In this document: positions 2,645 through 63,872 of the stretch, piece by piece | Layout of the letters: each line of letters starts with the position of its first letter | Numbering within the stretch: the first letter of the stretch is position 1 | From: Dillenia suffruticosa | Taxonomy: Eukaryota > Streptophyta > Magnoliopsida > Dilleniales > Dilleniaceae | Assembly: GCA_033439265.1 (NCBI GenBank) | Contig: JAVTVX010000011.1 | Coordinates: 11,408,590 to 11,472,589, forward strand | Direction of reading: 5' to 3' | Length of the DNA: 64,000 bases | Made by a program: the position numbers and the translations under genes | The notes under the pieces: generated by a model | Databases searched by the model: none | Seen by the model: the letters and a program-made list of their open reading frames with translations, nothing else | Told to the model about the DNA's origin: nothing

Positions 2645-3040
2645 TTAACCTTTATATTTCAATAACACAAGTTTTGCATCGAGTGTACCAATTTCTGGCT
2701 TTTCAATCTTGACAAATCTTTTTTCAATATCAACAAGGATATCCTTGGATGTAGCAATAGTATCAGATATAGTGCCCCTAAAATTTTCTGGGATGACCTT
2801 CTTTATAATCATGAGACTAATGCGGTTCGACCTCTCCCACCTATCAAACTCCCTCTTTTCATTAGAGGTACTCTTATCTATAATTGGTGGAGGACAGTCC
2901 ATCGTTAGCTCAAAGTCCATATCCATAACCTTGAGAACAATTAGAAGATTTTTTCGCCATGATTTGAAGTTTGAGCCATTCAACATGGGAATGGAGTTGA
3001 GTTGGGCATTGATTTTGGTAGAAATAGTATTAATTGTCAA
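2645..3040 (-). pseudogene. copia gag (UBN2-like) N-terminus (fossil)
   Basis: The translation begins near the gag start and carries SIPMLNGSNFKSWRKNLLI, matching the 'LNGxNYxxWK' opening of copia gag. The helical UBN2-type region follows (FDRWERSNRISLMIIKKVIP). The remainder of gag and the zinc knuckle region continue towards 2240 (lysine-rich, KKQQKVPGEPEKKG-like) in degraded form. Confidence 0.8.
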
Positions 3041-4640
3041 AACAGAGAATGATGATCAATATATACTCAAACGGAACTTTAAAATCAAATAAATTCAAAT
3101 ATGAGAAATTCCTATCTTAAAATACCGATAACTCTATTAATATTTTATCTTTAGATAAAATAATTAACTTGTAAATGGTATCTTGATATAACAATCAAAT
3201 ATTTACAATAAGAGCATGTCAAACAACTATCATCTTTTGGGCTAATAAATTGATCATATGTCAAACCGAAAAATTATCACGTATTTATTACCATAAGGCG
3301 TACATACAATTCCGTCAAATATGGACTTTCCTTTGGACCGATTGGTATCCATATGAATTGCATACACACAACCTTTTTATATTCCAAAAATAAATTGATG
3401 TCTACAAGAGATGTCACTTTGTTGACATGTTATTTCAATTTATTTATTTAGAAATATATACAAAACCATATTTATATTTGAATAATATTCGTAATTGAAA
3501 AAAAATTCAATTTTGTCCTGATGGACTCAATTTCTTGAAAATTGGGCTATTTAAAGCCTAATCTTATAAACTTTAAATTGGGCCTAAAAAAATTTTAGTA
3601 AATTTGTCTCCATCATCTTTCTTTCCATCTTTATACTTTTATTGTCGGCATAAAACCAAAATTTTAACCTTTTGTTGATAACTGATCCAAAACTTGGCCA
3701 ATCCCCGTTCTGTAGTAAAGGACACTGGAAAGTTCCCAGATAGGTGGTGAGTTCAATTTAGAACTGTTAAAGAACCAAACAGTTTTAAACTTATCCCGGT
3801 TTTGTTGACAGAACTTTCCTAAACATGTCATACCATCGCATACTAAAAGAATAATCAGTTTTGAATATAAAAGAAGTATCAAAGAATGACAAGGATGAAA
3901 ATGGGTTCAATTGAATCCAATAAGTTCCAAAACTTTTTATACCCAAAATTGAGTCTATTTGGGTCCAAAATGGCCCATAAAACTTTTTTTTTAAATATTG
4001 ATTTTTTTTGTGATGTGGATTTGCAATAAAAGAAAAAATTTTATTTTGTTGGAATTTAAAAGTTTTCTTTTGAAATTGGTAAGTCATAAAAAAAGGGAAA
4101 TTAAAATAAAAAAATTTCCCCTTTTTTGTTTCCAAATTCTGAAAGTTTCATTGCATATAAAAAAATGTAAGTGTCAAAACAAATGAACTGAAATTTACAT
4201 ATACATATATCATATATATTGAAAATGCCAAAAATCCTTAAAAAAAAAAAGTCAACTTCCTTTTTTTTTAAGTTGCCAAAAAAAGGAAGCTTGATAATAC
4301 AAAATTCTGTGAAGATTTTGCTTGATTTGGTGCTTCCTCCATTCATTTTTTTTTTGAGTTGAAAAGATCCCGGCACAAATATATATATATATATTTAAAA
4401 ACACCGGATGTCGGTTTTAACGAAAAACTGAAAATTGACTTTAACAAAATTGAATGTCGACTTTATGAAAACTTTCCAAATTTTTTTTTATTCAAATCCA
4501 CACCCAAAATTGCCGAATTTTTGAAAATTGAAATATCTATTAAAAAAAGAATGCATATTCTCAAAATTCATATAGTACCAAAATCATAAAAAAAACTTAA
4601 AATATGCATAAAAAACAAATTCCAATGACTCAAGTACGAG
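3041..4640 (-). other. long untranslated leader of the copia element, or inserted filler
   Basis: About 1.6 kb of A/T-rich DNA lies between gag and the primer site. Short open frames on both strands are low in complexity and resemble nothing. It is either an unusually long leader or contains an unrecognised insertion. Confidence 0.45.
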
Positions 4641-4656
4641 TGGCTCTGATAACACT
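4641..4656 (-). other. primer binding site (tRNA-Met type), copia
   Basis: On the minus strand the bases directly after the presumed LTR read TGTTATCAGAGCC, close to the TGGTATCAGAGC complement of initiator tRNA-Met used by most plant LTR elements. Its position beside the TG..CA block at 4657 supports the LTR call. Confidence 0.6.
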
Positions 4657-5065
4657 TGTTGAGAAAAATTAATTTAATGCAAAAGCATATCAAATATCGT
4701 GTGAAATTATTAGAATTAAAAGTTTAATAGACTGAAATTGAAACTTAGAACATATCGAAATTATACATGATTTCATAACTGAAAACTGAATAGAATGAAA
4801 TCTTGATTTGACTTTTGTTTGGGTAGAATCCTTGTCACGGCCTTCCAAGTTAAATGTATTTTCACAGAATCTCTCTATATGATGGGCGTATTAGGGAAAA
4901 GAGTGATGCAATGATCCAGGAACCATAACCTGTATTTATAGTTACATGAATGACTTTTCTTCTAAATTCATAATAGAATTTGTCTATTTAACTTATTCCA
5001 GTTAGCTTACCGAATTCACATGAATTTATGTAACTTTCCTGTTATTTTTAAGTCACCATTCAACA
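4657..5065 (-). repeat. probable 5' LTR of the copia element
   Basis: A 409-bp block begins TGTTGA and ends TCAACA, a perfect 6-bp terminal inverted repeat with TG..CA ends, and abuts the primer site. The partner LTR is off the window, so the right boundary is inferred only from the terminal motif. Confidence 0.55.
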
Positions 5066-5480
5066 TTCCCTATTTAACCCATCATAAATAGTAAATATCT
5101 ATTGATATCTACATATTTATTTATTTTCATATTCTCTGAAATACTTAAATCCAAATTATCAAATTTTTTAAATTTATAGGATCATTTTTATATGAATTTA
5201 TCTTATGGGTTAGACAGTATGTAATATATAATTATTTTAACATATAAGTTTAATATTGGATTAATGATCAAACATAGGAAAATAAAGGAGGACCAGAACA
5301 ACGATAACAAAGTTAGGCCCATATGGTTTCACAAGCAAAATATGATAAAAAAGAAGCACATGGAGATTTAACAATGAAGAGATAAAAAGTTGAGTCTATT
5401 GTAGTCACTTGAAAAGCCTTTGTCCGGTTCCTGTTCTTTAGCCCTTTTAGGTAGACTTCCATATTCTTTTGATTTATTTT
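5066..5480. other. AT-rich intergenic stretch, nothing recognised
   Basis: No convincing frame, RNA gene or repeat seen on either strand. The 61-codon minus-strand frame at 5313-5498 has no recognisable motif. Confidence 0.5.
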
Positions 5481-5486
5481 TGGTGC

Positions 5487-5665
5487 TATACCAATCAATA
5501 TTCGAAATCACACTCCTATTAATTCAATCTGAAATTTATAATGACTCATTTAGAGAGCTATCCTCTCAACGTAGTTTGTTTTATACCTAAATCGCGAGTT
5601 GAACTCGGAATTTTGGTTAAGGGATTTAATGCCACATTCTATTAGATCAACTGACCGTCGATCCG
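5487..5665 (-). repeat. tRNA-derived SINE, copy 1 (minus)
   Basis: On the minus strand it opens with GGTCAGTTGATCTAATAG and contains GAGTTCAACTC, resembling pol III A and B boxes. It is the reverse complement of the element at 5805-5993 over most of its length, with considerable divergence, so both belong to one SINE family. No clear target-site duplication was found for this copy. Confidence 0.65.
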
Positions 5666-5804
5666 TGTTTTTTTGGATTATATGTTTTTGATAAATCTGT
5701 AACTATATCCCGATATTTTTGATCGAAAAAAGTATTAAACCCATCTAGTTCTTGGAGCTTTATATGGTTTCATACTTTTAAGAGCATCAAGAAACTCATT
5801 GTGC

Positions 5805-5993
5805 ATTAACGGTCAGTTGGTTTAGTGAGATATGATACTAAATCTCTTAATCAAGATCTCTAGTTTGACTCCCAATTTATGTATGGAATAGATTACGTTT
5901 GGAGGATAGTCCCTAAATGGGTTACTACAAGTTTCAAATTGGATTAATTAAAATATGATTTCGAATATCGATTAGTATAATATAAGAAAAAAA
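5805..5993 (+). repeat. tRNA-derived SINE, copy 2, with target-site duplication
   Basis: About 190 bp: tRNA-like head (GGTCAGTTGGTTTAGTGAG, later AGTTTGACTCCC as B box), an unrelated body, and a short A-rich tail. It is flanked by AAGAAACTCATTGTGC at 5789-5804 and AAGAAGCTCATTGTGC at 5994-6009, a 16-bp duplication with one mismatch, as expected for LINE-driven insertion. Confidence 0.8.
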
Positions 5994-6159
5994 AAGAAGC
6001 TCATTGTGCGTGACATTTCTACGTAAGCCTGCGACTCAATCCTTGTAAATTCTAGAACGATCACGAATATGAGGCAAGCCAAAAAGGGCTGATGTCGAGC
6101 AAAAAAGGTGACAGAAATGAGAGTAGAATACACCTTGGAGCTAGAAGGGATCAGATTAC

Positions 6160-6830
6160 TGAGACATGTCAGCTAGAGCAACATCCGAGCCTCCTAAATA
6201 TCTCCCTTAAAATTTGGATGAGTGGTCCAGTAGGTTCAAGACGAGAAGGTGAAGCAGAAGTCCTTGCCAAACCAATAGTGATTATTAGCAGATTTATAAC
6301 CGACGCTTCAGGGAAGAGTATTCTCCGTTCTACAATCCCAAGGGTCCTATCCAATATTCGGAGAAATCGACCACCCCATGGTGTTTGGGTTACTAGGTGA
6401 ACATCATTAAAGTCTGCTATCAATATCCAAGGATCCCATCTTAAATGACTCCAGATAGCATCCCTTGTACATCGGGGACTCGCTTAAATAACTGAACAAA
6501 ACCATGGAGCCAAAAAAGGATGAAGACAGATTTCAGCAATACCCCGTTCAAAACTAGTTGGGTCACCTGCGTTCAAACATATTAAGTCTAGACCAGTCCA
6601 GTTATCCCAAATACGAGAGATAGAAAACCATATCCAGTTGAGAAAACTTGCACAATTCCTGCAAGTGCACCACACACATTCCAGAACACGATACAAAATT
6701 AAGGTGGAGTCATGTTCATAGTTACAGAGAACAAGGAAAATCACCAACGAACTCGATAACACTCGGTTTTTGCAAGAATTGAAGTTGAAGGCTGATTGTA
6801 GATCTCTTGGTACGGCTGTCAATCGGGCCC
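6160..6830 (-). mobile_element. L1-type LINE fragment: endonuclease domain
   Basis: The minus strand encodes pieces of an APE-type endonuclease in order: FLAPWFCSVI, then SPRCTRDAIWSHL, WDPWILIADFNDV, RFLRILDRTLGIVERRILFPEA, and a final THPNF-like block. In plant L1 ORF2 these correspond to 'AVYASP..R..LWxxL..PWLxxGDFN' and 'LDRALxNxxWxxxFPEA'. At least two frame changes and an in-frame stop separate the pieces. No reverse transcriptase follows, so this is an internal fragment, not a 5'-truncated full tail. Confidence 0.75.
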
Positions 6831-7965
6831 ATCGCCCATCCTTATTCTGTCATCGACTCGGCATAAATGTTCTAATCGCATTTAAGTGGGATTCATTTTG
6901 GTATTAGCTCAAACAAAATTTTACTTCGATTATATTTCAGTTTTATCAAATTTTCCCTTAATTTGTAATTTCATAAATTAGTTATTAATTTGGTAATTTC
7001 ATAGAAAAAAATATTGGAGCATACCCCATGGGTATCTTTTTCCTCTATAAATCACTTGATCACCCCAAAAATTTTAAAAACACAAAAGAGAAAAATTAAT
7101 AATTTGGACCACATTAATCTATGTTTCATGTAAAAAAAATAAAAAAAAAAATGGATAAGATTTCCCGGTAAAATCAAGTAATTTTTTTTTTTAAAACAGT
7201 TTAAATATGGTTTAATGAAATTCATCAATTAATTAAGTGGAAATGATATTGAAATAAAATAAAATTTGGAGTAAATACTTAAAACTGTTTCCAAATATGT
7301 GATTTAGGTTATGAATCAAAGATTTTCAGGATTATGAGGAGTTAATGGACAATATGGTTAAATTGTAACGGAGAAAATCCAATCTCAACCTGCAATTTAG
7401 AATTTGAGGAAATGATCGACTACAATAAACTTGGGGTTAATTTTTCATAATAACACTATATAATTACATTAAAAAAGGTTTTTGCAATCGGGACCTAATC
7501 ATTATAATTTTTCTCTCTCGGTCTCTTTTTTTGTTTTTATCACCGGTATATGAACTTTATCCGACTAATCCGTTTCGAATACTGTAAGATTCATTTTAAT
7601 GGTTGGTTCTCTCAAATTCTTTTTCGTCATTTTCAAAATTCAAATTCGAGATTTCTGATTAAGGGGGTAAAATGACCGACCACTAAACCCAAAAAAATTT
7701 AGTTCTCTCTCTCTGTACAAACGCACACGGATATCGATGGATGCATATAATATGCATGTGTATACATACTTTTCTACATGGTGTGAGTATACATTTTTAA
7801 ATAATCAAGAACTTCAAATTGCCTATTGTATCATTTTTTTTTATATAGGAAAACTCGAACTTAAGACTTTTGTAAGAGGGAGGGAGAACAGTGACAGTTG
7901 AATTATAACTCTTCAGTACCTAATATCATATTAGGTTTCAATTTTTATGTAATTTTACTTGACTA
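6831..7965. other. AT-rich non-coding DNA upstream of the PSY-like locus
   Basis: No coding frame recognised. A TATA-like CTCTATAAATCA near 7042-7053 could be a promoter element for the PSY-like locus, but no signal-peptide exon could be placed between it and the first motif. Confidence 0.3.
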
Positions 7966-8141
7966 ATGGATCTCCAACTTATTGCACCAAAGGTGAAAAT
8001 GGAATGCATGGTAAGAAATTTTAGGGGAGGTAATTCAATTATTGAAGATTATAGGAGTCAAACAGCAAATCCTTCGCATGACTCCAAAGTACCACCAAAG
8101 GAGGTGATGCGATCGTTGGAGATCATGGGGTCCAATGGCAA
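7966..8141 (+). pseudogene. tandem PSY-like peptide locus, 5' part
   Basis: An open frame contains IIEDYRSQTANPSHDSKVPP; the DY..PP core is at 8047-8097. This matches the plant sulfated-tyrosine peptide PSY1 (DYGDPSANPKHDPGVPPS), whose precursors are secreted and signal through LRR receptor kinases. A second, weaker unit (GGDAIVGDHG) starts at 8101 and is cut at 8141 by the chromovirus. It resumes at 13450 as ANPRHDPEVPPSGED, in a frame that does not run cleanly from the motif's own beginning. No signal peptide is visible upstream in this frame, so a first exon is missing or unrecognised. With the insertion and frame problems this is probably a dead or relic locus. Family assignment is my reading of the motif, not a search. 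Confidence 0.6.
8137..8141 (+). repeat. target-site duplication GGCAA (left)
   Basis: GGCAA precedes the left LTR and recurs at 13445-13449 after the right LTR, defining the chromovirus insertion point within the second PSY-like unit. Confidence 0.85.
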
Positions 8142-8581
8142 TGTCACAGAACTTGTGGTGAGTTGGCTTATGTAAACTTAGCAAGTCGACACTTGTCAAC
8201 CTGTAGATACTTTTACTTGTTTGTGCTGCAATTTATCACACTCGATTGCTAGCAGATGTCTGACGAAGAGCTAGGAAAGGAATTGGAACAGAGTAGAGAG
8301 AAAATGAGGGAGAAAAAGAAGAATGAGAAGAAGAAGAGAAGAAGAAGAAGAAGAAGAAGAAGAAGAAGAAGAAGAAGAAGAAGAAGAAGAAGAAGAGAGA
8401 AAGAAAGTGAAGAAGAAGGACAACTAGTAAGTCTTCAATTATGCCTTATTCATGTCTGATACAATCTATTTATTCATTGTTCATTGTTCTAACCTCCAAA
8501 CTACTTAACTGCATAATTGCTTTCAGTTAAAGCTAACTGTCATTTGTTTTAGTTACATTTCATTTTCCTCTTACTGTGACA
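8142..8581 (-). repeat. left LTR (3' LTR) of chromovirus
   Basis: Begins TGTCACA and ends TGTGACA, a 7-bp inverted terminus. It contains an expanded GAA tract at about 8316-8395 that is much shorter in the right copy. The polypurine tract on the minus strand (AAGGAGGGGAGAT) adjoins it at 8582-8596. Confidence 0.92.
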
Positions 8582-8599
8582 ATATCTCCCCTCCTTGAA

Positions 8600-9226
8600 A
8601 TCCTTGACCTCAAGGACTGAAATCTGGAAATTGAGATTTGATGAAGTTGATATCCTTCCATGTTGATTCATCTGGACTTAAATTCATCCAACTGTTTAAC
8701 CATTGGCTGACTGGTCTATTATTCCTCAGGACCACTCTTCGTTTTAAGATTGCTTCTGGCTAAATTAATGCCTGCCCACTAGCCCCTACCATAGGTAGAT
8801 TGGGCATCAGATTTTGAGTAAGATCTATCTTTTTCTTCAGCAGTGAGACATGAAAGATGGATGTATTTTAGATTCAACTAGTAATTGCAACTTGTATACT
8901 ACTTGACCTACTCTTGCCAAGAGTTGAAAGGGTCCATAATACTTGGAAGACAACTTAAGTTGCTTCCTCAGCTCCACTGACTGTTGCCTGTAAGGCTGTA
9001 GCTTGAGATAGACAAAATCTCCCACTTCCAAATTCCTTTCAGTCCTATTCTTGTTTGCTGCAATCTTCATTCTGTTCTGAGCTTTTGCTAAGTGATTATA
9101 CAGAATTTGTAGCATTGCCTGCCTATTTTGAACAAAGTTTTCTGTAGCTGGTGTAACCGTCTCCAAATATAGTCCAATTGGGATGGATTTAGTTTGATAT
9201 CCATACAAGGCTTCAAAGGGAGTCAT
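8600..9226 (-). pseudogene. chromovirus integrase C-terminus and chromodomain (fossil)
   Basis: 9226-8837 encodes MTPFEALYGYQ, then NRTERNLEVGDFVYLKLQPY and SSKYYGPFQLLARVGQVVYKLQL, the usual integrase C-terminal blocks. Beyond it towards 8640 the translation resembles a degraded chromodomain (NNRPVSQWLNSW). Chromodomains steer integration to marked chromatin. Confidence 0.8.
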
Positions 9227-9277
9227 CTATATGCTGGAGTGATAACTCATATTATACCACCATTTAGCTAGGTTTAA

Positions 9278-9900
9278 TCATTGATACCACTGCCCTGGTT
9301 TGTAAGAAATCATGCATCTCAAATAGCATTCCAGACATTGGTTGAGTCTCTCACTTTGTCCAGCTGTCTGTGGGTGGTAGGCATTACTTAACTTCAGTTG
9401 AGTTCCTACTAACTTGAATAATTCTTGCCAAAACAAGCTGGTGAAGACTTTGTCTCGATCTGTTACTATAGCTTCTGGAAGTCCATGCAGCTTAAACACA
9501 GTCCACGAATACTTGAGCTACTTCATGGCAGTGTAAGGATGTTGCAATGTTATGAAGTGGCTAAATTTGGTGAACTTGTCTATGACCGCTAGGATAATGT
9601 CATATCCTTGAGATTCAGGAAGTCCTTCTATGAAATCCATGCTAATTTGAGCCCATGCTTGGCTTCGTATAGGTAGAGGTTGAAACAATCATGGATAGGC
9701 CACATGCTCCGACTTGTTCCTTTGGCATGTATCACATTCCTGAACATACTTAGTAATATCTGCTCTCATGGAAGGCCAATAGAATGCTAATTTTACCCTC
9801 TACAGAGTTTCATTTTGTCTTGAGTGTCCTCCTACTACAAAATATGCATATGTGAGATTATCCTGGCTCTTAGTTGATATCCTATTCCCACATATATCTT
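9278..9900 (-). pseudogene. chromovirus integrase core and zinc-binding region (fossil)
   Basis: 9499-9278 encodes LPEAIVTDRDKVFTSLFW and YHPQTAGQSERLNQCLECYLR, which hold the second Asp and the Glu of the DDE integrase. The degraded zinc-binding and first-Asp region lies at about 9500-9900 (DTCQRNKS-like, ISMDFIEGLPES-like). Broken. Confidence 0.8.
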
Positions 9901-9959
9901 CTTTCTGAATTTAAGAAGTCCTCCTTGTAATGTGAACTCTGAACTGCTTCCTGGATCCA

Positions 9960-11345
9960 ATGTTAGCTGAGCTATCATGTTATGACAATCCTTATCTTCA
10001 ACATAGCTTTGAACTACCTCTTGGATCCACTAGGGCCTCACCAAGGAAGTGGCCATTAGCAACCTGCTATTTTTATGCTAGTAACTCCTTTCTTGATAGA
10101 GTATCAGCTGCTCATATTTCTGAACCTTTCTTATATTGGATCTCATAATCCAATCCAAGAAGCTTAGTAAGCCATTTATGTTGTAAAGAATTTGTGAGCC
10201 TCTGTTCCAGGAGGTACTTCAGACTCTGATGGTCTATTCTAATGATGAAATGATAGCCTATCAAGTAGTGCTTCATTTTGTAGCTGCCATAACAACAACC
10301 ATTAACTCTTTCCCATGTATAGACATTCTTTGACCCTTAACTCCAAGAGTTTTACCTAGGTAAGCAATAGGTTGTCTTTCTTGCATTAACATAGCCTCCC
10401 AGCCCTTTGCACATGTATCAGTCTCCAATGTAAAGTGCTTGGAGAAATCTAGCAACCTCATCACAGGTGCTGAACACATGACTGATTTAAGTTGCTGAAA
10501 TACTCGATCAGCTTGCTCATTCCATTTGAACCTATCTTTCTTGAGTAAGTCATTGAGAGGTTTGACTATGATTCCATAACCCTTGATGAACCTCATGTAA
10601 TTGCTTGTTAAACCCAAGAAGCCTCTCAGAGCTTTGACAAAAGTTGGAACAGACCAATTCATGATGCAGTCAATTTTTTGTGGGTCCATTTTCACTCCTG
10701 AATCTGTTACTATATGTTCTAGGTACTCCACTTGGGATTGACCAAATGAACATTGGGATAGTTTAGCATACAACTCATGCTGCCTCAATATTAGAAGGAC
10801 CTCTTGTAGATGCTGAATATGGGACTGCAAATTAGGACTGTATACCAAAATATCATCAAAAAAGCCAGCACAAATTTCCTCAGGTAGGGTTGAAGTACTT
10901 AATTCATCAATGATTGAAAAGTAGCATGTGCATTTGTAAGACCAAAAGGCATTACTAGGAACTCAAAAATGCCCATGGTGAGTTTGAAAAGCTGTCTTAA
11001 CTACATCCTTTCTTTAAGATCAATCTTGGAAAATAGATTTGAACCATGTAATTCATCTAGTAATTCATCAATATTGGGGATAGGGTACCTGTCCTTTACT
11101 GTGATGTTGTTAAGCTGCTTGTAATCCACACAAAACCTCTAAGAGTTATCTTTCTTTTTCACCAATAGAACTGGGGAAGCAAATGGGCTGCTACTATCTC
11201 TAACAACTCCTTGGTTGAGCATGTCCTGAACTTGCTTTTCTATTTCAGCTTTTTGAGAATGTGGATGTCTATAAGGTGGTAGCTTGAATGGTTGGGCTCC
11301 AGGTTTAAGTGGCCTTGAATGATCATGGGACCTTTTTGAAGGCAA
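9960..11345 (-). pseudogene. chromovirus reverse transcriptase and RNase H (fossil)
   Basis: 11345-11139 encodes the RT start (GVVRDSSSPFASPVLLVKKKD). The palm follows in degraded form to about 10850. 10848-10273 encodes the RT end (FGQSQVEYLEHIVTDSGV, LRGFLGLTSNYMRFIKGYG) and the RNase H start (TLETDTCAKGWEAMLMQE). Standard Ty3/gypsy layout; broken. Confidence 0.85.
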
Positions 11346-11399
11346 TGAGGTGGGTTGAGAAAAAACATCATTGAATTATTGCAGAAAGTTTGTAATCGA

Positions 11400-11804
11400 C
11401 TAGTGCAGTGGGAATTGATGGTTTTTTGCAAACATGTTAATGTTACCATAGCTATGGATTTGTTGTGTTCTGAATTTCTTGGTATCCTTTCCACGGATTA
11501 GCTTCATTTTTGGATCTTTCACCATTCCTACTAACACCATTTCCCCTTCCTCACCTGATAGTTTGACTTGTAGCATTCTAAAATCAAAAGTTATGGGACT
11601 AAAATTGTACATCCAATCCACACCAAGTATTATATCCCATTCTCCTAAAGTGATAACCTTTAAATCAAATGAGAAGCTATAACCTTGTATGCTCCACTTA
11701 ACTCCCTTGATTTTAGTGTCACTACTTACTTTGCTCCCATCTACTAACATTGCCTGCAGGGGTTCATCCTTTTCTGGTTCCATTTTCAATCTCTCTACCA
11801 ACAT
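11400..11804 (-). pseudogene. chromovirus protease region (fossil)
   Basis: The translation ends the aspartic protease fold with WDIILGVDWMYNFSPITFDF, preceded by VDGSKVSS and VKWSIQGYSFSFDL, matching plant gypsy retropepsins ('LGMDWL..ISPITCDF'). Confidence 0.8.
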
Positions 11805-11881
11805 ACAATTGATGAAACTATTTGAACTCTCTGTATCTATTAGTATAGATATTGTAAATTCCTATAGTGTTCCTTGAAGGA

Positions 11882-12908
11882 TTATAGTTTTCTTCCTAAG
11901 GAATCAGAAAGGGTACAGAGAGATACATCAAGTATCTCACCACTCTTGTCATCTTGCTCTATTACTTCATTACTAACTAATCCATCTTTCTCCTCTACTG
12001 CTATTATTACATTCAAATGTTTGAACTTGCATTGATGGCCATAAGCATACTTTTCTCCACATTTAAAACGCAAATTGTTAGTTCTGCGGTAATGTATCTC
12101 TTGTGGAGATATCTTGGGGAGTCTACTGTTATTATTGGAAGGTGTCGCAGTCCTACTCCTCCTTAATTCTTCACTGTTATCCTAGTTCTTACCCATACCA
12201 ATCCTATTTTGTCTAGTTAATTCAAGAGACTGCTCTTGACGGGATGCAATTTCAAAGACTTGTAGTAGGGTTGTTGGTTTTAGCATCCTTAAAATGGGTT
12301 TAATTTTCTCTTTAATCCCACTAATAAAACTGGAAACAAAGTAGGTCTCTTTAGGATTCACCTGGAGTATGAGTGACCACATTTCTTCAAATCTTTCCTG
12401 GTATTCTACCCTGGTTCCTTATTGAGATAGCTTTTTAGAATCTTCCACAACATCTCGTACCCCTTTTTTCTTCAAATCTTTGACAAAGGAGTTGGGAAAA
12501 TTTTTTCCAATTCACTTCTTGTTTTGATGTCTTCACTCTTTGAAACCATATCTCAGCTTTATCATCCAGGTACATTTCCACTGTGTCCACCCAACTACAG
12601 TTCGGTATCTGGTACATTTTAAAGAATTTAAGGCATTTTCTTACCCATATTCGAGGATTGTCTCCACTGAATATGGGAAGTTCAACCTTTGGTGGATTTG
12701 GCAAATGGTTCTTCCCGTTGGTTTCCTTCCTGGGTTGTGATGTCCCAATATCACCACTAAATCTCTCTTCAGTAGGAGTTGGAAGAATTGGAGTTTTATT
12801 CAATCGATTTGCTTCTGAAATCTCTTCTTTATCTTTATTCATCATTTGCATTATGGTGTTGAATTTTTTCTCCATGTCAATGGCAAGAGCATGAGTTCTT
12901 GCTTCCAA
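11882..12908 (-). pseudogene. chromovirus gag and zinc knuckle (fossil)
   Basis: 12908-12435 and 12382-12182 encode retrotransposon gag (KVELPIFSGDNPRIWVRKCLK, YLDDKAEIWFQ, ETYFVSSFISGIKEKIKP). 12073-11882 begins with a zinc-knuckle-like CGEKYAYGHQCK. Coiled-coil N-terminus at 13048-12851. Broken. Confidence 0.82.
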
Positions 12909-13034
12909 CTGTCGGTACTAGGTCCCAATTCAAAATGGACTTCTTGTATCTTTGTGTCTTGTTTCTTTAATTGTTCTTCAATAGTTTTAAATCTGGTTCC
13001 TTCAGCCATGGTTGTGTTTTTGCCGAGGAAAGGT

Positions 13035-13050
13035 AGCTCTGATACCAAAT
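13035..13050 (-). other. primer binding site (tRNA-Met), chromovirus
   Basis: TTGGTATCAGAGCTACC on the minus strand, two to three bases from the right LTR, complements the 3' end of initiator tRNA-Met. Confidence 0.85.
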
Positions 13051-13052
13051 TT

Positions 13053-13444
13053 TGTCACAGAACTTGTGGTGAGTCAACTTATGTAAACTTAGCACGTCAA
13101 CACTTGTCAACCTGCAGATACTTCTACTTGTTTGTGCCGCAATTTATCACACTCGATTGCTAGCAGATGTCTGACTAAGAGCTGGGAAAGGAATTGGAAC
13201 AGAGTAGAGAGAAAATGAGGGAGAAAAAGGAGAAGAAGAAGAGAAGAAGAAGAAGAAGAGAGAAAGAAAGTGAAGAAGAGTGACAAGAAGTAAGTCTTCA
13301 ATTATGCCTTATTCATGTCTGATACAATCTATTTATTCATTGTTCAATGTTCTAACCTCCTAACTACTTAACTGCATAACTGTTTTCGGTAAAAGCTAAC
13401 TGTCATTTGTTTTGGTTACATTCCATTTTCCTCTTGCTATGATG
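13053..13444 (-). repeat. right LTR (5' LTR) of chromovirus
   Basis: Collinear with 8142-8581 from TGTCACAGAACTTG onward and followed directly by the GGCAA duplication at 13445-13449. Confidence 0.9.
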
Positions 13445-13449
13445 GGCAA

Positions 13450-13835
13450 ATCCTCGGCACGACCCCGAAGTACCTCCATCCGGAGAAGATGTTAATCCTA
13501 GACATCACCCTAAAGGCAAATTCTCAACACGACCCTAAAGTACCTTCTTCAGGAGAAGATGCAATTATTGAAGATTACAAGGGTCCTAAGCCTAATCCTA
13601 GACATCACCCTAAAGTACCTCCATCCGGAAATAATGAAATTGTTGAAGATTACAGGGTCCTAAGGCTAATCCGAGGGCAAATCCTCGACATGACCTAAGT
13701 CACCTCCATCAGGGGAGAGGGCAAACCCTTGGCATGACTCTAAAGTACCTCCATCCATGGATAAGTGAAATTATTGAAAATGACAAAATGGGGGTTGAAT
13801 TCTCAACATTACTCTATGTGACCTCCTCTGTGCAA
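13450..13835 (+). pseudogene. tandem PSY-like peptide locus, 3' part (five or more degenerate units)
   Basis: Resumes the unit cut at 8141: ANPRHDPEVPPSGED at about 13449-13493. Further units follow: VNPRHHPK (13491-13514), ANSQHDPKVPSSGED (about 13515-13559), DYKGPKPNPRHHPKVPPS (13573-13626, exactly 18 codons), EDYRVLRLI then a shifted ANPRHD (13640-13700), a GMTLKYLHP frame equivalent (about 13722-13762), and a very worn unit to about 13830. The best unit is identical to Arabidopsis PSY1 at 11 of 18 positions, including the sulfatable DY, NP, H and VPPS. Unit length is about 75 bp. No single frame stays open through all units, so this looks like a decaying multi-motif precursor, or one whose introns I cannot place. 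Confidence 0.6.
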
Positions 13836-14054
13836 TCACTTTTGAGGGGAACTAACAAAGAAAAACTAATGATTTAGAATGCTTAAATATCATTACACTC
13901 CTAAATTTAATAAAAGTAAAAATTAAAACATGACAACCCACGCGTATTTTATCTTTAAATTGCTATTTCTTGTATTTCTTGTGGGAGAGGAATCAAGTTT
14001 TAAAGGGTGGTATAGAGACACAAGGCATATGAAGTTAGTTTTATCAAATTTGGG
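13836..14054 (+). other. short intergenic stretch with a signal-peptide-like frame
   Basis: The only notable thing is a frame from 13930 starting MTTHAYFIFKLLFLVFLVGEES, with a hydrophobic run followed by a polar stretch. It runs into the SINE at 14070, so as it stands it is not a gene. It could be a relic first exon or chance. Confidence 0.25.
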
Positions 14055-16603: not shown

Positions 16604-17786
16604 TTAGTTGTCCAAAGTCAGTTGCAGATTACAAGAGACCTTCCCCAGCTCCACAAGCTTCTCTGCCTCTTTAATCTTTGATTCCTTAATCAAGCCATCC
16701 ACGACAAGCTGCAGCAAGGCCTTGTCCATGAGAACTGACTGATTCAAACCATCAATGCACATCTCAAGAGCAAACTCATACTCACCATTCTCACAAAGCA
16801 CTGGAATAAGCACTTTAAAAGTGACCCAATCTGGGGCAAACTTATTCCCGCAAGTCCTTATACCACCTTTTGCTTCCTTCTATGTCATTACAGCCACAGA
16901 AACCCTCAATCAAGTGATTAAAAGTAAACAAATCAGGTTCCAATCCCATCCTCCTCATTTCTTCAAACAACTCCACTGCTTCGGATATTTTAGTTTCTCT
17001 AACCAATCCACGTAACCTCGCATTGTAAGTTCTAATATTAGGAACAATATTGCAACTTAGCATTTTTGCCCAAATCTTCTCCATATCTGAAAAACGACCA
17101 TTCTGATGAAACCCAACAAGAAGCGTATTAAAAGTGATCACATCAGGCTCTAATCCCCACTTTCTAATCTCATCCAGCATTAACTCGGCAGAATCCGGAG
17201 AACCCATTTTACAATATGCCCGCAAAACTATGTTGCAAGCAGTGATATCAGGATCAATAGAAAACTTCGCGGGAAGATTTCGAAAATACTCATGAACCTT
17301 GTCAAACTGTTTGGAAACGAAACAAGCTTGGAGAAGAGCATTAAGTGACTTGACTGTGCGCTTACAATTTCTCTCCGGTAATTCGTCGAGCAACTTGTAA
17401 GCGTGGTCAATCATCCTAGCATTTCCATAAAGAGCAATGAGACGACACGCATAGTCTTCGTCGTAAACACCTTCGCCCATCTTCTTGTTCTGAAATTTCT
17501 CTACCAGGTCTTCAATGAATGGTAATTTATCGATGTACGAAAGGCGACGAGCTAATCTGTAATGGGAATTACCAATATCGTCGTCTTCAGATAATGCTTT
17601 AAACTTGGTACTAATTGCTCCATATAATTTTGGAGTTTTGGATGATGAATTTAAATGGGGTTCTTGGGCTTTGGTTTTTGACTCTGTTTTTGGTTTTGTT
17701 TTGCGTTTTGGGATTTTGGGGGCTTTTGCGGATAGAGAAGTAGAAGCATCGAAAATTCGACGGAGACGGTTGCAGAGAGAACTCAT
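16604..17786 (-). CDS. P-class pentatricopeptide repeat (PPR) protein with an apparent frameshift
   Basis: The start ATG at 17786 opens a 314-codon frame with a basic, Ser/Lys-rich N-terminus (MSSLCNRLRRIFDAS..KAPKIPKRKTKPK) typical of an organelle, probably mitochondrial, transit peptide. It is followed by tandem 35-residue PPR motifs of P class: TACNIVLRAYCKMGSPDSAE, DVITFNTLLVGFHQNGRFSD, NIRTYNARLRGLVRETKI, DLFTFNHLIEGFCGCND. PPR proteins bind organelle RNA. The frame ends at 16842 with KDLRE. The adjacent frame carries on immediately as GNKFAPDWVTFKVLIPVLCENGEYEF and runs to 16604, giving the expected next PPR motif, so one base appears lost or gained near 16845-16855. Expected full product is about 390 residues, like small mitochondrial PPR proteins of the At1g55890/At3g13160 kind (family resemblance from memory). 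Either a recent pseudogene or a sequencing error. Intronless, as most PPR genes are. Confidence 0.88.
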
Positions 17787-18480
17787 TTGATGGGGCTTTT
17801 GAACCGGCCGCCGTATAGGGTTGATTACGGAACGCTCACCTTTACATCACACACGGCAGCCATTTTGTTTTCCAGGGAATTTTGCTATAATCTGAATCCG
17901 CCGAAACTTCTGTTTGGTGCCACCTTTTTTTTTTTAATTTTTTTTTAGCGCTTTTACCTTCGAAATAAATTAATTAATATTTATATATAAGTTTTTATAT
18001 TTTTAAAATTTAATAAATTATTTATTTATTTAATTATAATTTCTATTATTATATTATTTATTTTATAATTAATAATTATATATTTGAATACTTTAAAATT
18101 TTATTATAAAATATAACTATTCTATTATTTTCATAAAATAATTAATATTTATATAAAAATTTTTATATTTCTTTTATATTTATGCATTTCTTCATATTTT
18201 TCTTTTTCATATTTTTATAAAACATAGTTTTTCAGTATCATTTCGTCTCTATTTTTATTTCCATTTTCGTACAATCTTAGGGACGTGGGAGGATGAAACT
18301 GTAAAATAATTTGTGCTGGTTGCCTCAAAATTATTTAAGAGAAATGGGAACATCCTACATTTACAAAACTTATTTTAACAGCAAAGCTTGCTTTCATTGC
18401 TATTAATTGAAATCACTCAAATCTTAGACTTAAAAAAAATCATTATCAAAATTAAAAAGTTTACAAAAATAAAACAAAAC
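17787..18480. other. upstream flank of PPR gene, then A/T-only low-complexity DNA
   Basis: Promoter side of the PPR gene to about 17930, then roughly 300 bases of almost pure A/T. No clear TATA box can be singled out in such composition. Confidence 0.4.
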
Positions 18481-56457: not shown

Positions 56458-57956
56458 TTAAATTTGAAGAATGAGAGATTTGGTGATGGGTGAGACTTCA
56501 ACGTCTGACAAGGTTGATAAGAAGCCAAGTACCCATCTCAGTTGGACAAGGAGGTTAGGATCTAGGCACATTCTGGTGAATCCCTTACCCAGTAGAGTGC
56601 TCAGATCTTTGAAAGCATGTTGAACTTCAGCCATCCTCGAAGAAGACTGCTCAAGGACTTCAATGGCTAGGGGCACAGTTGTTATAAAGTCATCATCCAA
56701 AAGTGCTTCAATATACCTCATTATTTTTTGATCTTCCTTGCTCAAGCCTGTTGCAGGAAGGATGGTGTCATCAAGTAGAGATTGCACATGAACGGTTGTC
56801 TCGGGAGTTGATGTCAAAAAAGGAACATTTGCAGACTCTGTAGCAGTATTGACTATAAAGGAGGTGCCAGGGCCAACAATGTAACTTGCGTAGTTTGAAG
56901 TTGATATACCTGTTTCACTTAAAGACTTAAAAGTATTGGGCCCTGGTGAGCTTAAATACTGAAATGGTTTGGAAGGAACCTTAATTTCTATCCATCCCTC
57001 CAACATCTTCACCACAGTACTCATTGAAGGCCTAGCATCAGGGGAGTCTTGCACACACCAAAATGCCACCATACACATTCTTTCTGCTTTTTGTCTATCC
57101 TTCTCTTCAATTCCACAAGCCAAAATTGTCAAACTAAAATTTCCTTTTTCGTACTCATCCCAAGCATGTTTTGGGAACCAGTGAATGCTATCCGAATCAA
57201 CATCGGTGTTCCTTCGCCTCCTGACAATCTCAAATAGAATCATACCAAAACTGTAAACATCCAATTTATTTGTTATCTCATGGTTGCGAAGCAGAAGCTC
57301 TGGGGCAGAGTAGCCTAGAGTTCCTCTGTAACCTGCAATGGTATCACGGGGCACATCTCTTTTGTGATGCTTGGCAAGCCCAAAGTCACACACTTTGGGA
57401 CAGAAATTGGCGTCCAGAAGAATGTTATGTGGCTTAAGGTCATAATGAGTGATATGTTTGTGGCACTCATGCATGTAAGCAATTGCTTTAGCTACCCTGA
57501 TCGCTATTTCATACAGTTTCACCCATTCCATTACTTGTCTTGTGGCAAACAAATGCATGTCTAGTGATCCCTTTTCCATGTACTCATACACAAGCGCAGC
57601 TAACTTCTTGTCATAGCAAAAACCAATGAGTTTGACTATGTTTATATGGCGCATTCTGACCATTGTGCCAAATTCAGTCATGAATTGTTCTTTAGCTAAT
57701 TCATCTAAAGTTCCATTAAAGACCTTTACAGCAATCCTCATGCCCTCAGGCAGTTGCCCTTTGTAAACCATACCAAAATTTCCACGACCCAGTTTTGTTT
57801 TGAAATTGTTAGTGTAGGTATAAATTTGTTGGGCTGTGAATTTGACAGTACCCTGCTTTGTCATGTCTTGGAGGAACATCTCCATGGTGCGTCCCTCAGC
57901 CCACAACTTGAGAAGTTGCTGTCGAGAGGGCAAATACTTTTGTTGCTTTAGTTTCT
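56458..57956 (-). CDS. receptor-like kinase, non-RD kinase domain (LRK10L/PR5K-like) with C-terminal extension
   Basis: Ser/Thr kinase fragment of about 500 residues encoded by one exon beginning after an AG acceptor at 57957. Counted from the TTG codon at 57933: P-loop GRGNFGMVYKG at 49-59, catalytic Lys70 in IAVKVF, HYDLKPHN at 163-170 (Tyr for Arg of HRD, so a non-RD kinase), DFG 183-185, GTLGYSAPE 204-212, and the C-lobe Arg in DARPSM near 301. The motif set and the 'GxxxMVRxRHxNIVxLxGFC' block fit the LRK10-like/PR5K group of plant receptor kinases, often linked to defence. Residues 320-490 do not belong to a kinase: a Ser/Thr-rich linker, then EDQKIMRYIEALLDDDFIT and QLRWVLGFLSTLSDVE. 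No extracellular domain or transmembrane segment was found upstream, so the gene is partial or has lost them. In-frame continuation past the stop at 56458-56460 is listed separately. Confidence 0.85.
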
Positions 57957-58119
57957 CTGTGGGAGGAGGATAAGTTGTAAATTATTGCATAAGCAGTAGA
58001 CAAAAAATAAAAAATAAACTTCTATTTATTTTTCAAAGCCCTATACTATGTAATTTCCAGATCACTAAGAAAGGCTGAGTACTTACCCGTTGGCGTTTTG
58101 TGACGTTCAGATTGATTTG
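57957..58119 (-). other. intron and small upstream exon of the kinase gene
   Basis: Donor GTAAGT at 58086-58081 and acceptor CCCACAG ending at 57957 bound a 130-bp intron. The exon piece 58119-58087 (ANQSERHKTPT-like) joins in phase to EKLKQQKYLPSRQQ. An in-frame stop lies just upstream of it, so either another acceptor (AAG at 58122-58120) is used or this is the decayed 5' end. Confidence 0.45.
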
Positions 58120-61277: not shown

Positions 61278-63831
61278 TGTCACGCCCCGACCCGGGATCG
61301 TGAGCAGCCGCCCGTTACCCTGGATGCCGGCTGTATTTTTACAGAAAATCGGACAGAACCTCCCCATATATCGGAGGTCTCCCATATTAAAATAAACCTG
61401 TTACCTGTCCAAAAGGGGCCATCCCGGCCTCAAAATGCATATATTATCCTCAACAACAAATCAGATCATCCTACTGCACAATCCAGGGCAACGCAAGGCT
61501 AACAAACAATTCTCCACAGTCCTAACCACAGACCTCTACTGCCATGCCCCCGTCAAAGGCATGGACAGCCGCCAGTCGCCCCTCCTGTGATTTAGAGGAG
61601 GCACCGAGCGATCCTAGAGGACAATTCTAAGACATGACACATTCCCAAATACAGACGCAACAAAAAAGAAATGCCTCAATGCAATGTCATGCAGTGACAT
61701 GAGAGTTCCACAATTTAAATGTCCATATTTATACAGTCATCCCAGAATTATAAAAAAAAATGGTTATCTATAGACCTCAGAATACAAATACATCACCAAT
61801 ACAAATTGCAGCGGAAATATACAATAATTCCTCAAGTCCAGGCCTGATCTCCCAAAGAAACTGAGCGTCCTAAAAGCGACACTCCTTGTCAAATACTATC
61901 TCTGAAACAAAAGGGAAATGAGGGGTGAGTACTCGGGAAAGAATACTCAGTGAGTGAGTGGGTCAATGCAATCGTCAAATATAGAGTGTGAAACTGGAGT
62001 GTCAAAACATAAGTATATAAATCATATTTCAAGTCATCATGCTCTTCATTTCAACAATATATCATTTCACGCATTTTCAAGTCAAATATGCATCCAAAGC
62101 ACTGTCATTAAAATCATAGAGCTGCCAGCCGAAAATGTCCTGGCAGAGGTCTACCGCGACCTATGACAGGCGCACCGGGGGTGTTATATGCAATTTTATT
62201 TAAAGTGCTCTCTACCCCGGCGTTGGCGACGAACCTCGTCCAGGTGCTAGACTTGAAGAGGATATCCAATCCAAATCCAAATCCTCCCCCTTTCGGGTTC
62301 AACCTGGCTAGTACCGTGTAGATAATCAAATCACGACAACTCGTGGGATACCCCAGGCCTAGGCATATCCGGACGCCACCAAAGCGCCTCTCACGGTGTC
62401 CTTCGTAGCTACGGAACAATACAATCCAAAGCCCTCAAGGCCAAAACCAATATCATATCAAAATGTGCCGAAATCAGGTTCATAAACCAATGCAACATAT
62501 AGCATAAAATGGCACATTATACATTTCAACTACATGGATGCATAATTTCATAATTCAATACAGTTTTTGGACACTCCAACGGTTCACAAAAGTCAAATTT
62601 TAAAACCAGTCAAAATATTTCCAACATACGACAAATCATGCTCATTATCAAAATGTTGTAAAACAAGATTTACATATTAAACAAAAGCATTGAAATAAAT
62701 CCCACTCACTGTTTTGGGGAAGGTAGCGCACTCCCCAATAACGCCAAAATACGCAAAACAAGACGCCCCTCAATCGAATCACCAAAATAGCCAACCTACT
62801 CAATCATCACGATTTTCATCAGATTTCGACTATTGTCAGGATTTATCGTTCTTCTTAATTTCGTACGAACCCTAAATTCCTCAATTTATAAACAAATCAA
62901 CTAATGCTACCTAATTTGACAAGGTTTATTCAAGGGTTGAAAAGATTTCATTTCTCTCACCTAGGATTCTTCGGATCTCGAATTTAGCTTTCGTTCGCCC
63001 GTTGGTTTGGTCTAAAACCTGAATGTTTCCAAATTTGAAACCATTGCGAACAATTTAAGTCCAATTACTAAAGAGATTCGAAACCCAAGTGCGAAAAATC
63101 GAAACTTAGAGTCATTTACCTTCGCAGAGGCTCATGGACTGCCACGGGCCGTCGCGGGCCGTGGGCCGCGGGCTGGCGGGCTGATGGGCTGGCGGGCCTG
63201 GTGGGCCGGCGGGCCTGATGGGTCTGCGGCCTGGTGGGCCTGCGGCCTGGCAAGCCGGATCACGCGCTGGAGCGCGCTCGCGCTCGTGCTGGCGCTGGCT
63301 CACGCGCTGAAGCGCACTCGTAAGCTGGATCGTGCACTGCTCGCGCTGGGGGTCGCACGCTGGAGTGCTCGTGCTCGTGCTGGGGCGTGCTGAGGCGCGC
63401 TGGGGTCGCGCGCTGGGGATCGCGACTGCTCGCGCGCTGCTCGAGCGCTGCTCGCGCGCTGCTCGCGCGCGGTTCGCGCGCTGCTCGCGCTTAGGCTGGG
63501 TCGCGCTGCAGCGCTCGCGCGCTCACGCGGAAGACTGCGCGGTGGTGCTAGCGCTCGCGCGGAGATGATCGCGCGGCTGTGCTCGCGCTCGCTGAGGACT
63601 GGAGATCGCGCTGCAGTCGCGCGCTCGCAGAGGGTTGGAGCAGCGACGGCCACGGCGCACTCGTGGGAGGAAGATCGTGCGGCTGATTCGGGCGGTCGCT
63701 CGCGGCGGAGGATGGCAGCGGGAGGGGAAGAGACACGGCGGCGGGGAGAAGGGAAAAAGAGAGAAGAAAAAGGGAGAGAAGAAGAGAGAAGAGAGGGGGA
63801 AAGAGAGAGAGAAAATTGGGCTTTAAGCCCT

Positions 63832-63872
<41 letters not shown>

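Follow-up and report, generated by a model that had tools for sequence, protein, structure and literature searches.

Passages on PSY biology in four papers (PMC7913133, PMC11534595, PMC10629525, PMC11641228) describe sulfation of a DY tyrosine, subtilase-type processing and LRR receptor kinases. In the passage of Tost et al. (2021; PMC7913133) that sets out the family criteria, the motif starts with DY and lies in the second half of a precursor of 60-200 amino acids for which a signal peptide is predicted; a BLAST match to the PSY1 precursor at E values up to 20 is among the features used as well. Precursors with a single motif include AtPSY1-9 and the soybean xylem-sap PSYs treated in part of PMC9369194, and a rice precursor with more than one is also in print: the legend to Figure 3 of Tost et al. 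(2021; PMC7913133) describes OsPSY7 (B9FKV0) as a predicted precursor with four PSY copies. This legend was the only account of a multi-copy PSY precursor in the passages surveyed, and those covered in the wheat and tobacco PSY literature (PMC11641228, PMC12153210) mention none. Here we describe a tandem array of PSY-like units in a 64-kb stretch of the Dillenia suffruticosa genome (596 Mb, 37 contigs), namely positions 11408590-11472589 of contig C11, hereafter the window, together with two paralogous arrays on contig C1, at 8.025 Mb and 7.852 Mb.

We consider it probable that the window locus is a dead copy of a small plant gene family whose proteins are predicted to begin with a segment resembling a signal peptide, followed by a short one and then by four or five PSY-like units of 24-25 residues. 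A preliminary description of the window had proposed a multi-peptide precursor, now decaying, on the premise that PSY precursors carry one motif each. Both the decay (the units fall in three different frames, and a signal-peptide exon was not found in the 64 kb) and the presence of several units per precursor held up, and one paralogue can be modelled with a signal-peptide-like exon and four in-frame units. The premise of novelty did not, given the four copies that the legend attributes to OsPSY7. Going by that legend, the multi-copy PSY precursor is an already known kind, to which this genome would add a second example. We met no description of the array family of this genome in the literature, in searches that were not aimed at the plant by name.

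The C1 arrays resemble OsPSY7 in having several PSY-type units per predicted precursor, a likeness that refers to the description in the legend and not to sequence or descent. They differ from what is described there in that most of their units lack a motif residue, and the window copy differs further in looking like a transposon-split pseudogene. With the single-motif precursors (AtPSY1-9 and the soybean peptides reported in the relevant section of PMC9369194) the units share the spacing of DY, [AP]N, H and P, and the C1 array genes share in addition a hydrophobic N-terminus and a modelled length within 60-200 amino acids. Two-domain CEP precursors of soybean, as presented in part of the same paper (GmXAP6a-c, GmCEP-XSP1; PMC9369194), are alike in that several related mature peptides come from one secreted precursor, but CEPs are a separate peptide family with another motif (e.g. 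DFKPTDPGHSPGVGH).

PSY likeness of the window array

All four motifs quoted in the preliminary description (DYRSQTANPSHDSKVPP, ANPRHDPEVPPSGED, ANSQHDPKVPSSGED and DYKGPKPNPRHHPKVPPS) are present on the plus strand, at 8047-8097 and then from 13446 to a stop at 13766-13768, with a long terminal repeat (LTR) retrotransposon between the two parts (Table 1). The best of them, DYKGPKPNPRHHPKVPPS, has 11 of 18 residues in common with the PSY1 sequence quoted there, as counted by eye. The reported period of about 75 bp is likewise apparent, in a tandem repeat at 13532-13672 (1.9 copies, 85% matches) and in a 38-nt core that is present five times, and the estimate of six or seven units is a fair one if the further decayed units at 13491-13514, 13648-13714 and 13721-13768 are counted. 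The array had been drawn as far as 13835, which is correct up to the TGA at 13766-13768; in the alignment this triplet falls on the stop codon of the C1 8.025-Mb gene, so that 13769-13835 lies beyond it. Directly after the stop, within the 3′ untranslated remnant, there is an apparent older decayed unit.

The likeness to PSY peptides was assessed with a profile of 13 mature PSYs that included no array sequence: PSY1 as quoted in the preliminary description, seven PSYs of soybean xylem sap (PMC9369194, Table 1, excluding XAP3, of CIF type) and five PSY-like peptides from the same genome. It was run on all stop-free pieces of at least 15 residues, taken from the window and from a 200-kb part of contig C1, with ten simulated 264-kb sets as controls. 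The C1 8.025-Mb array came first, at 37.4 bits (E 9.3e-10) and with four listed stretches; the window array came second, at 22.4 bits (E 5.6e-5). The latter score, for the frame 13393-13695, is the best in the window and compares with 11.4 bits for the best simulation; it bears out the PSY-like identity of the array with evidence independent of the array itself. Two further pieces of the 3′ part scored 14.9 and 13.0 bits, while another two, scoring 9.6 bits and, for the frame that holds unit 1, 9.4 bits, fall under the best simulation and are at chance level taken alone. The family pattern DYX4[AP]NX2HXP (PMC7913133) gave one match in the six frames of the window, at 13573, and none in 60 first-order Markov simulations; with at least five of the six conserved positions required there were two (13573, complete, and 8047, at 5/6), against a simulated mean of 0.1 and maximum of 1. 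The same pattern is found in the last unit of the C1 8.025-Mb array and is missing from the 7.852-Mb array.

In DNA and protein searches of the 596-Mb genome, convincing scores for the array came only from the window and the two C1 positions, three loci in all, and a query with the 3′ untranslated region (3′UTR) matched the same three; repeat counts in the genome are to be read as lower bounds. Matches at C10 14.785 Mb (protein, E 4.3) and C24 7.869 Mb (protein, E 0.5, two internal stops) were taken as chance. The preliminary description had allowed for a non-coding satellite found elsewhere in the genome, an expectation that three convincing loci do not bear out. A tandem repeat of 75 bp without coding function, or a piece of a mobile element, whose translation resembles PSY by accident would suit the different frames of the window units and the retrotransposon within the array. 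The count of three convincing loci in 596 Mb, itself a lower bound, argues against it, as do the profile score far above simulations, the paralogues with their open frames and signal-peptide-like exons, and the fact that the retrotransposon is a separate insertion whose target-site duplication lies inside the array. We regard this explanation as vanishingly improbable, and a satellite or chance origin of the array was rejected on the genome searches and simulations.

Single-motif PSY-like places also exist in this genome, each with one motif, of the DYPGTGANNHHDPKTP type, as against four to five tandem units in the arrays. Five such places (L043-L047, on C35, C13, C9, C26 and C15) were each examined over 3 kb; their matches to a 19-residue query had E values of 6e-5 to 1.07. 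The C35 and C13 places, and likewise those on C9 and C15, look like duplicate pairs.

Paralogues on contig C1

The copy at C1 8.025 Mb (L007) is modelled with a TATA-like box, an exon 1 of 67 nt, an exon 2 of 53 nt and an in-phase array exon, which together predict a precursor of 155 residues. Its four in-frame units are ENYRGSTANPSHDSK, DYWGLRAIPWHDPEVP, ENYGGSRANLRHDSKVPP and DYKGAKPNPLHQPNVPTSGDK, the last followed by the stop. The splice sites are predicted models, and of three in-phase acceptors the first gives the 155-residue form, in which units begin near residues 60, 85, 110 and 135, so that three of the four lie in the second half of a protein within the 60-200 amino acid range. As a candidate multi-copy precursor of the OsPSY7 kind, this gene offers four in-frame PSY-like units (37.4 bits), one of them complete, and a modelled secretion, where the frames of the window copy are broken. 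Set beside the PSY criteria as given in the passage of PMC7913133, the 8.025-Mb model appears to agree or nearly agree with them and the window copy does not. The second copy, at C1 7.852 Mb (L006, 7851911-7852285, minus strand), has a signal-peptide-like exon followed by five similar in-frame units, each of 24 residues and of the VEDYVGPKPNPPQNNKVPPQENI type; it has six in-phase acceptors, and its splice model is uncertain.

Common to the two C1 genes are a TATA-bearing stretch before the ATG, exon 1 (67 nt), exon 2 (53 nt), a long intron 2 and the 3′UTR. The predicted exon 1 encodes MASQH(S/R)TP(M/I)LLLF(L/V)PLF(A/T)SFLLG, and its core is hydrophobic in both (Kyte-Doolittle mean of about 2.4 over 11 residues), hydrophobicity alone being the measure by which a signal peptide was judged. 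The preliminary description had also considered that orthologues might prove to be repeat proteins with no signal peptide; looked at in paralogues of the same genome, both copies carry this hydrophobic N-terminal exon. Identity between the two is 87% over the 70 bases before the ATG (61/70), 93% in exon 1, 87% in exon 2, 85% in intron 1 and 80% in intron 2. Gaps between them are multiples of three in all three cases in the array, compared with none of three in intron 1, four of 16 in intron 2 and neither of two in the 3′UTR.

Promoter and exon-1 fragments of the family were seen at C11 3.375 Mb (L037) and C12 19.597 Mb (L038/L039), the latter interrupted by other sequence of about 1.1 kb; no array was present near either in the five surrounding loci examined.

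State of the window copy

With a sequence that is 5′-truncated, frame-broken and transposon-split, the copy in the window is best taken for a dead pseudogene. The units are spread over three frames, with indels, one truncated unit and one partly duplicated unit. Exons 1 and 2 of the paralogues were not found in the 64 kb, where the matches were short and at chance level (best E 0.41), and the plus strand from 2992 to 8100 contains no ATG with a hydrophobic stretch (mean >2.0) that might supply a signal peptide. Piecewise alignment to the 8.025-Mb gene reaches back to the remnant at 7484-7965 (86% identity over 7484-7526, 76% over 7751-7818 and 83% over 7928-8092); upstream of about 7484, in the first 20 kb of the window, there was no alignment at E values up to 1e-3. 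The copy lacks a continuous precursor frame, and neither the length nor the motif position of a PSY precursor is found there. Among the five unit cores, differences at codon positions 1, 2 and 3 number 34, 7 and 34 of 110 comparisons, and since they are fewest at position 2 the cores fit former coding sequence.

One complete unit does lie inside a stop-free stretch of 101 residues, and the window copy might on that account be still active, yielding for example the single-unit peptide DYKGPKPNPRHHPKVPPS from the frame 13393-13695. We think this very unlikely. The stretch begins in the right LTR of the transposon, the first two exons were not found in the 64 kb, as described above, and the 14 bases of the C1 TATA-box stretch have no exact match on the plus strand of the window.

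The preliminary description had taken 8142-13444 to be an insertion, and its identity as an LTR retrotransposon is confirmed by an LTR at each end, a 5-bp target-site duplication and retroelement open reading frames on the minus strand. The LTR sequence runs from TGTCACAG to CTGTGACA, the right end being worn to CTATGATG. Pieces of gag, protease and reverse transcriptase/RNase H on the minus strand point to an element of Ty3 type, although the gag match is under the Pfam cut-off (21.2 versus 24.1 bits). The two LTRs differ by a K80 distance of 0.0785 (392 sites); at a substitution rate of 1.3e-8 per site and year, the insertion would be roughly 3 million years old, a figure that depends on the plant.

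Table 1. Features of the array and its surroundings in the window (positions are those of the window).
Feature	Position	Strand	Description
Remnant of intron end / 5′ flank of array exon	7484-7965	+	Piecewise alignment to C1 8.025-Mb paralogue (L007)
Unit 1	8047-8097	+	DYRSQTANPSHDSKVPP; DY, N and H kept; S replaces last P of motif
Unit 2, first half	8101-8141	+	Frame-shifted; GDH where DY expected
Target-site duplication GGCAA	8137-8141 (left copy), 13445-13449 (right copy)	+	Flanks insert
LTR retrotransposon	8142-13444	-	LTRs 8142-8581 (~440 bases) and 13053-13444 (392 bases)
Unit 2 core	13446-13490	+	ANPRHDPEVPPSGED
Truncated unit	13491-13514	+	VNPRHHPK; frame change after
Unit core	13516-13560	+	ANSQHDPKVPSSGED
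Best unit	13573-13626	+	DYKGPKPNPRHHPKVPPS; sole complete DYX4[AP]NX2HXP in window
DY-bearing unit	13648-13714	+	Frame-shifted; partly duplicated after DY (ANPRHDL, in-frame stop)
Last unit and stop	13721-13768	+	ANPWHDSKVPPSMDK; stop aligns with stop of C1 8.025-Mb paralogue
3′ untranslated remnant	13769-13967	+	Resembles both C1 paralogues

Possible products of the family and its constraint

The anatomy of the C1 genes, taken with known PSY biology (DY sulfation, subtilase-type processing, LRR receptor kinases), makes a secreted precursor that gives several sulfated peptides the natural reading. Such a precursor would enter the secretory pathway, where a tyrosylprotein sulfotransferase would sulfate the tyrosine of (E)DY in those units that retain it; proteases would then cut the linkers between units (...VPPSGE / xIIE-DY...), and one translation product could release several PSY-type ligands of 17-18 residues for binding to a receptor. 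The window copy, with neither a signal-peptide exon nor a continuous frame, would yield no such ligands. From splicing and expression through secretion, sulfation and cleavage to receptor binding, these steps are what we infer from the layout of the genes.

Several observations weigh against this reading. No family was assigned by Pfam and NCBIfam to four window pieces, by Pfam to the two spliced C1 models or by PDB to one piece. The complete motif is confined to the last of the four units at C1 8.025 Mb, where NY replaces DY in two units and the Asn is lost in one. At C1 7.852 Mb, Gln replaces the His of PSY in all five units, and a search with the PSY profile does not list the frame at E values up to 50. 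The two C1 arrays are 61% identical (136/222), which is below the introns (85% and 80%), and the likeness in exon 2 (87%) scarcely exceeds that in intron 1. Exons 1 and 2 together differ between the C1 genes at 12 sites, 11 of them non-synonymous (non-synonymous divergence dN 0.127, synonymous divergence dS 0.039), so that these exons show no sign of purifying selection and decay or a change of role could be under way in the C1 copies too. Differences at codon positions 1, 2 and 3 number 25, 17 and 35 of 66 among the 8.025-Mb units, a weaker pattern than in the window, and 4, 12 and 14 of 110 among those at 7.852 Mb, which do not show the greatest conservation at position 2. Residue losses, low array likeness and the differences in exons 1 and 2 are in keeping with a constraint that is relaxed or changing. 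With one complete motif each in the window and in the fullest paralogue, and the His lost in the second, an output of several active hormones is a proposal for every copy.

The products may instead be secreted proline-rich repeat proteins, descended from a PSY precursor but no longer cut to hormones, and kept or drifting as structural, decoy or functionless extracellular proteins. The scarcity of complete units (one of four and none of five), the predominance of non-synonymous changes in exons 1 and 2 and the divergence of the arrays beyond that of the introns would all follow readily. Against this, the 8.025-Mb array is still recognised as PSY over four stretches with the top score of the profile search, and open frames of 124 and 125 residues persist; we find this alternative rather unlikely. 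Tentative, and on balance less likely than not, is the suggestion that the lineage has its own diversifying tandem multi-ligand PSY family, in which the 8.025-Mb gene still encodes PSY-type ligands among altered units, the 7.852-Mb gene has homogenised its units to a His-less but sulfatable VEDYVGPKPNPPQNNKVPP, new ligands arise by duplication of units within the precursor and spare copies, such as that in the window, die. With open and broken copies in one genome, the family would offer a setting for asking whether multi-copy precursors yield several ligands, by what course units become homogenised or disappear, and whether PSY receptors still accept the altered ones.

Other features of the window

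When the window was compared with a 200-kb part of C1, the matches listed included many besides the array; no gene-order block was seen among them, and most look like dispersed repeats. The segment at 61278-63856 (about 2.6 kb), 91% identical to C1 7950215-7952822, is probably a dispersed repeat as well. On the minus strand, 16842-17846 encodes a segment of a pentatricopeptide-repeat protein and 56458-57981 a segment of a protein kinase gene, in which residues 60-325 of a frame of 507 residues form the kinase domain; this kinase may resemble the brassinosteroid-signalling kinases.

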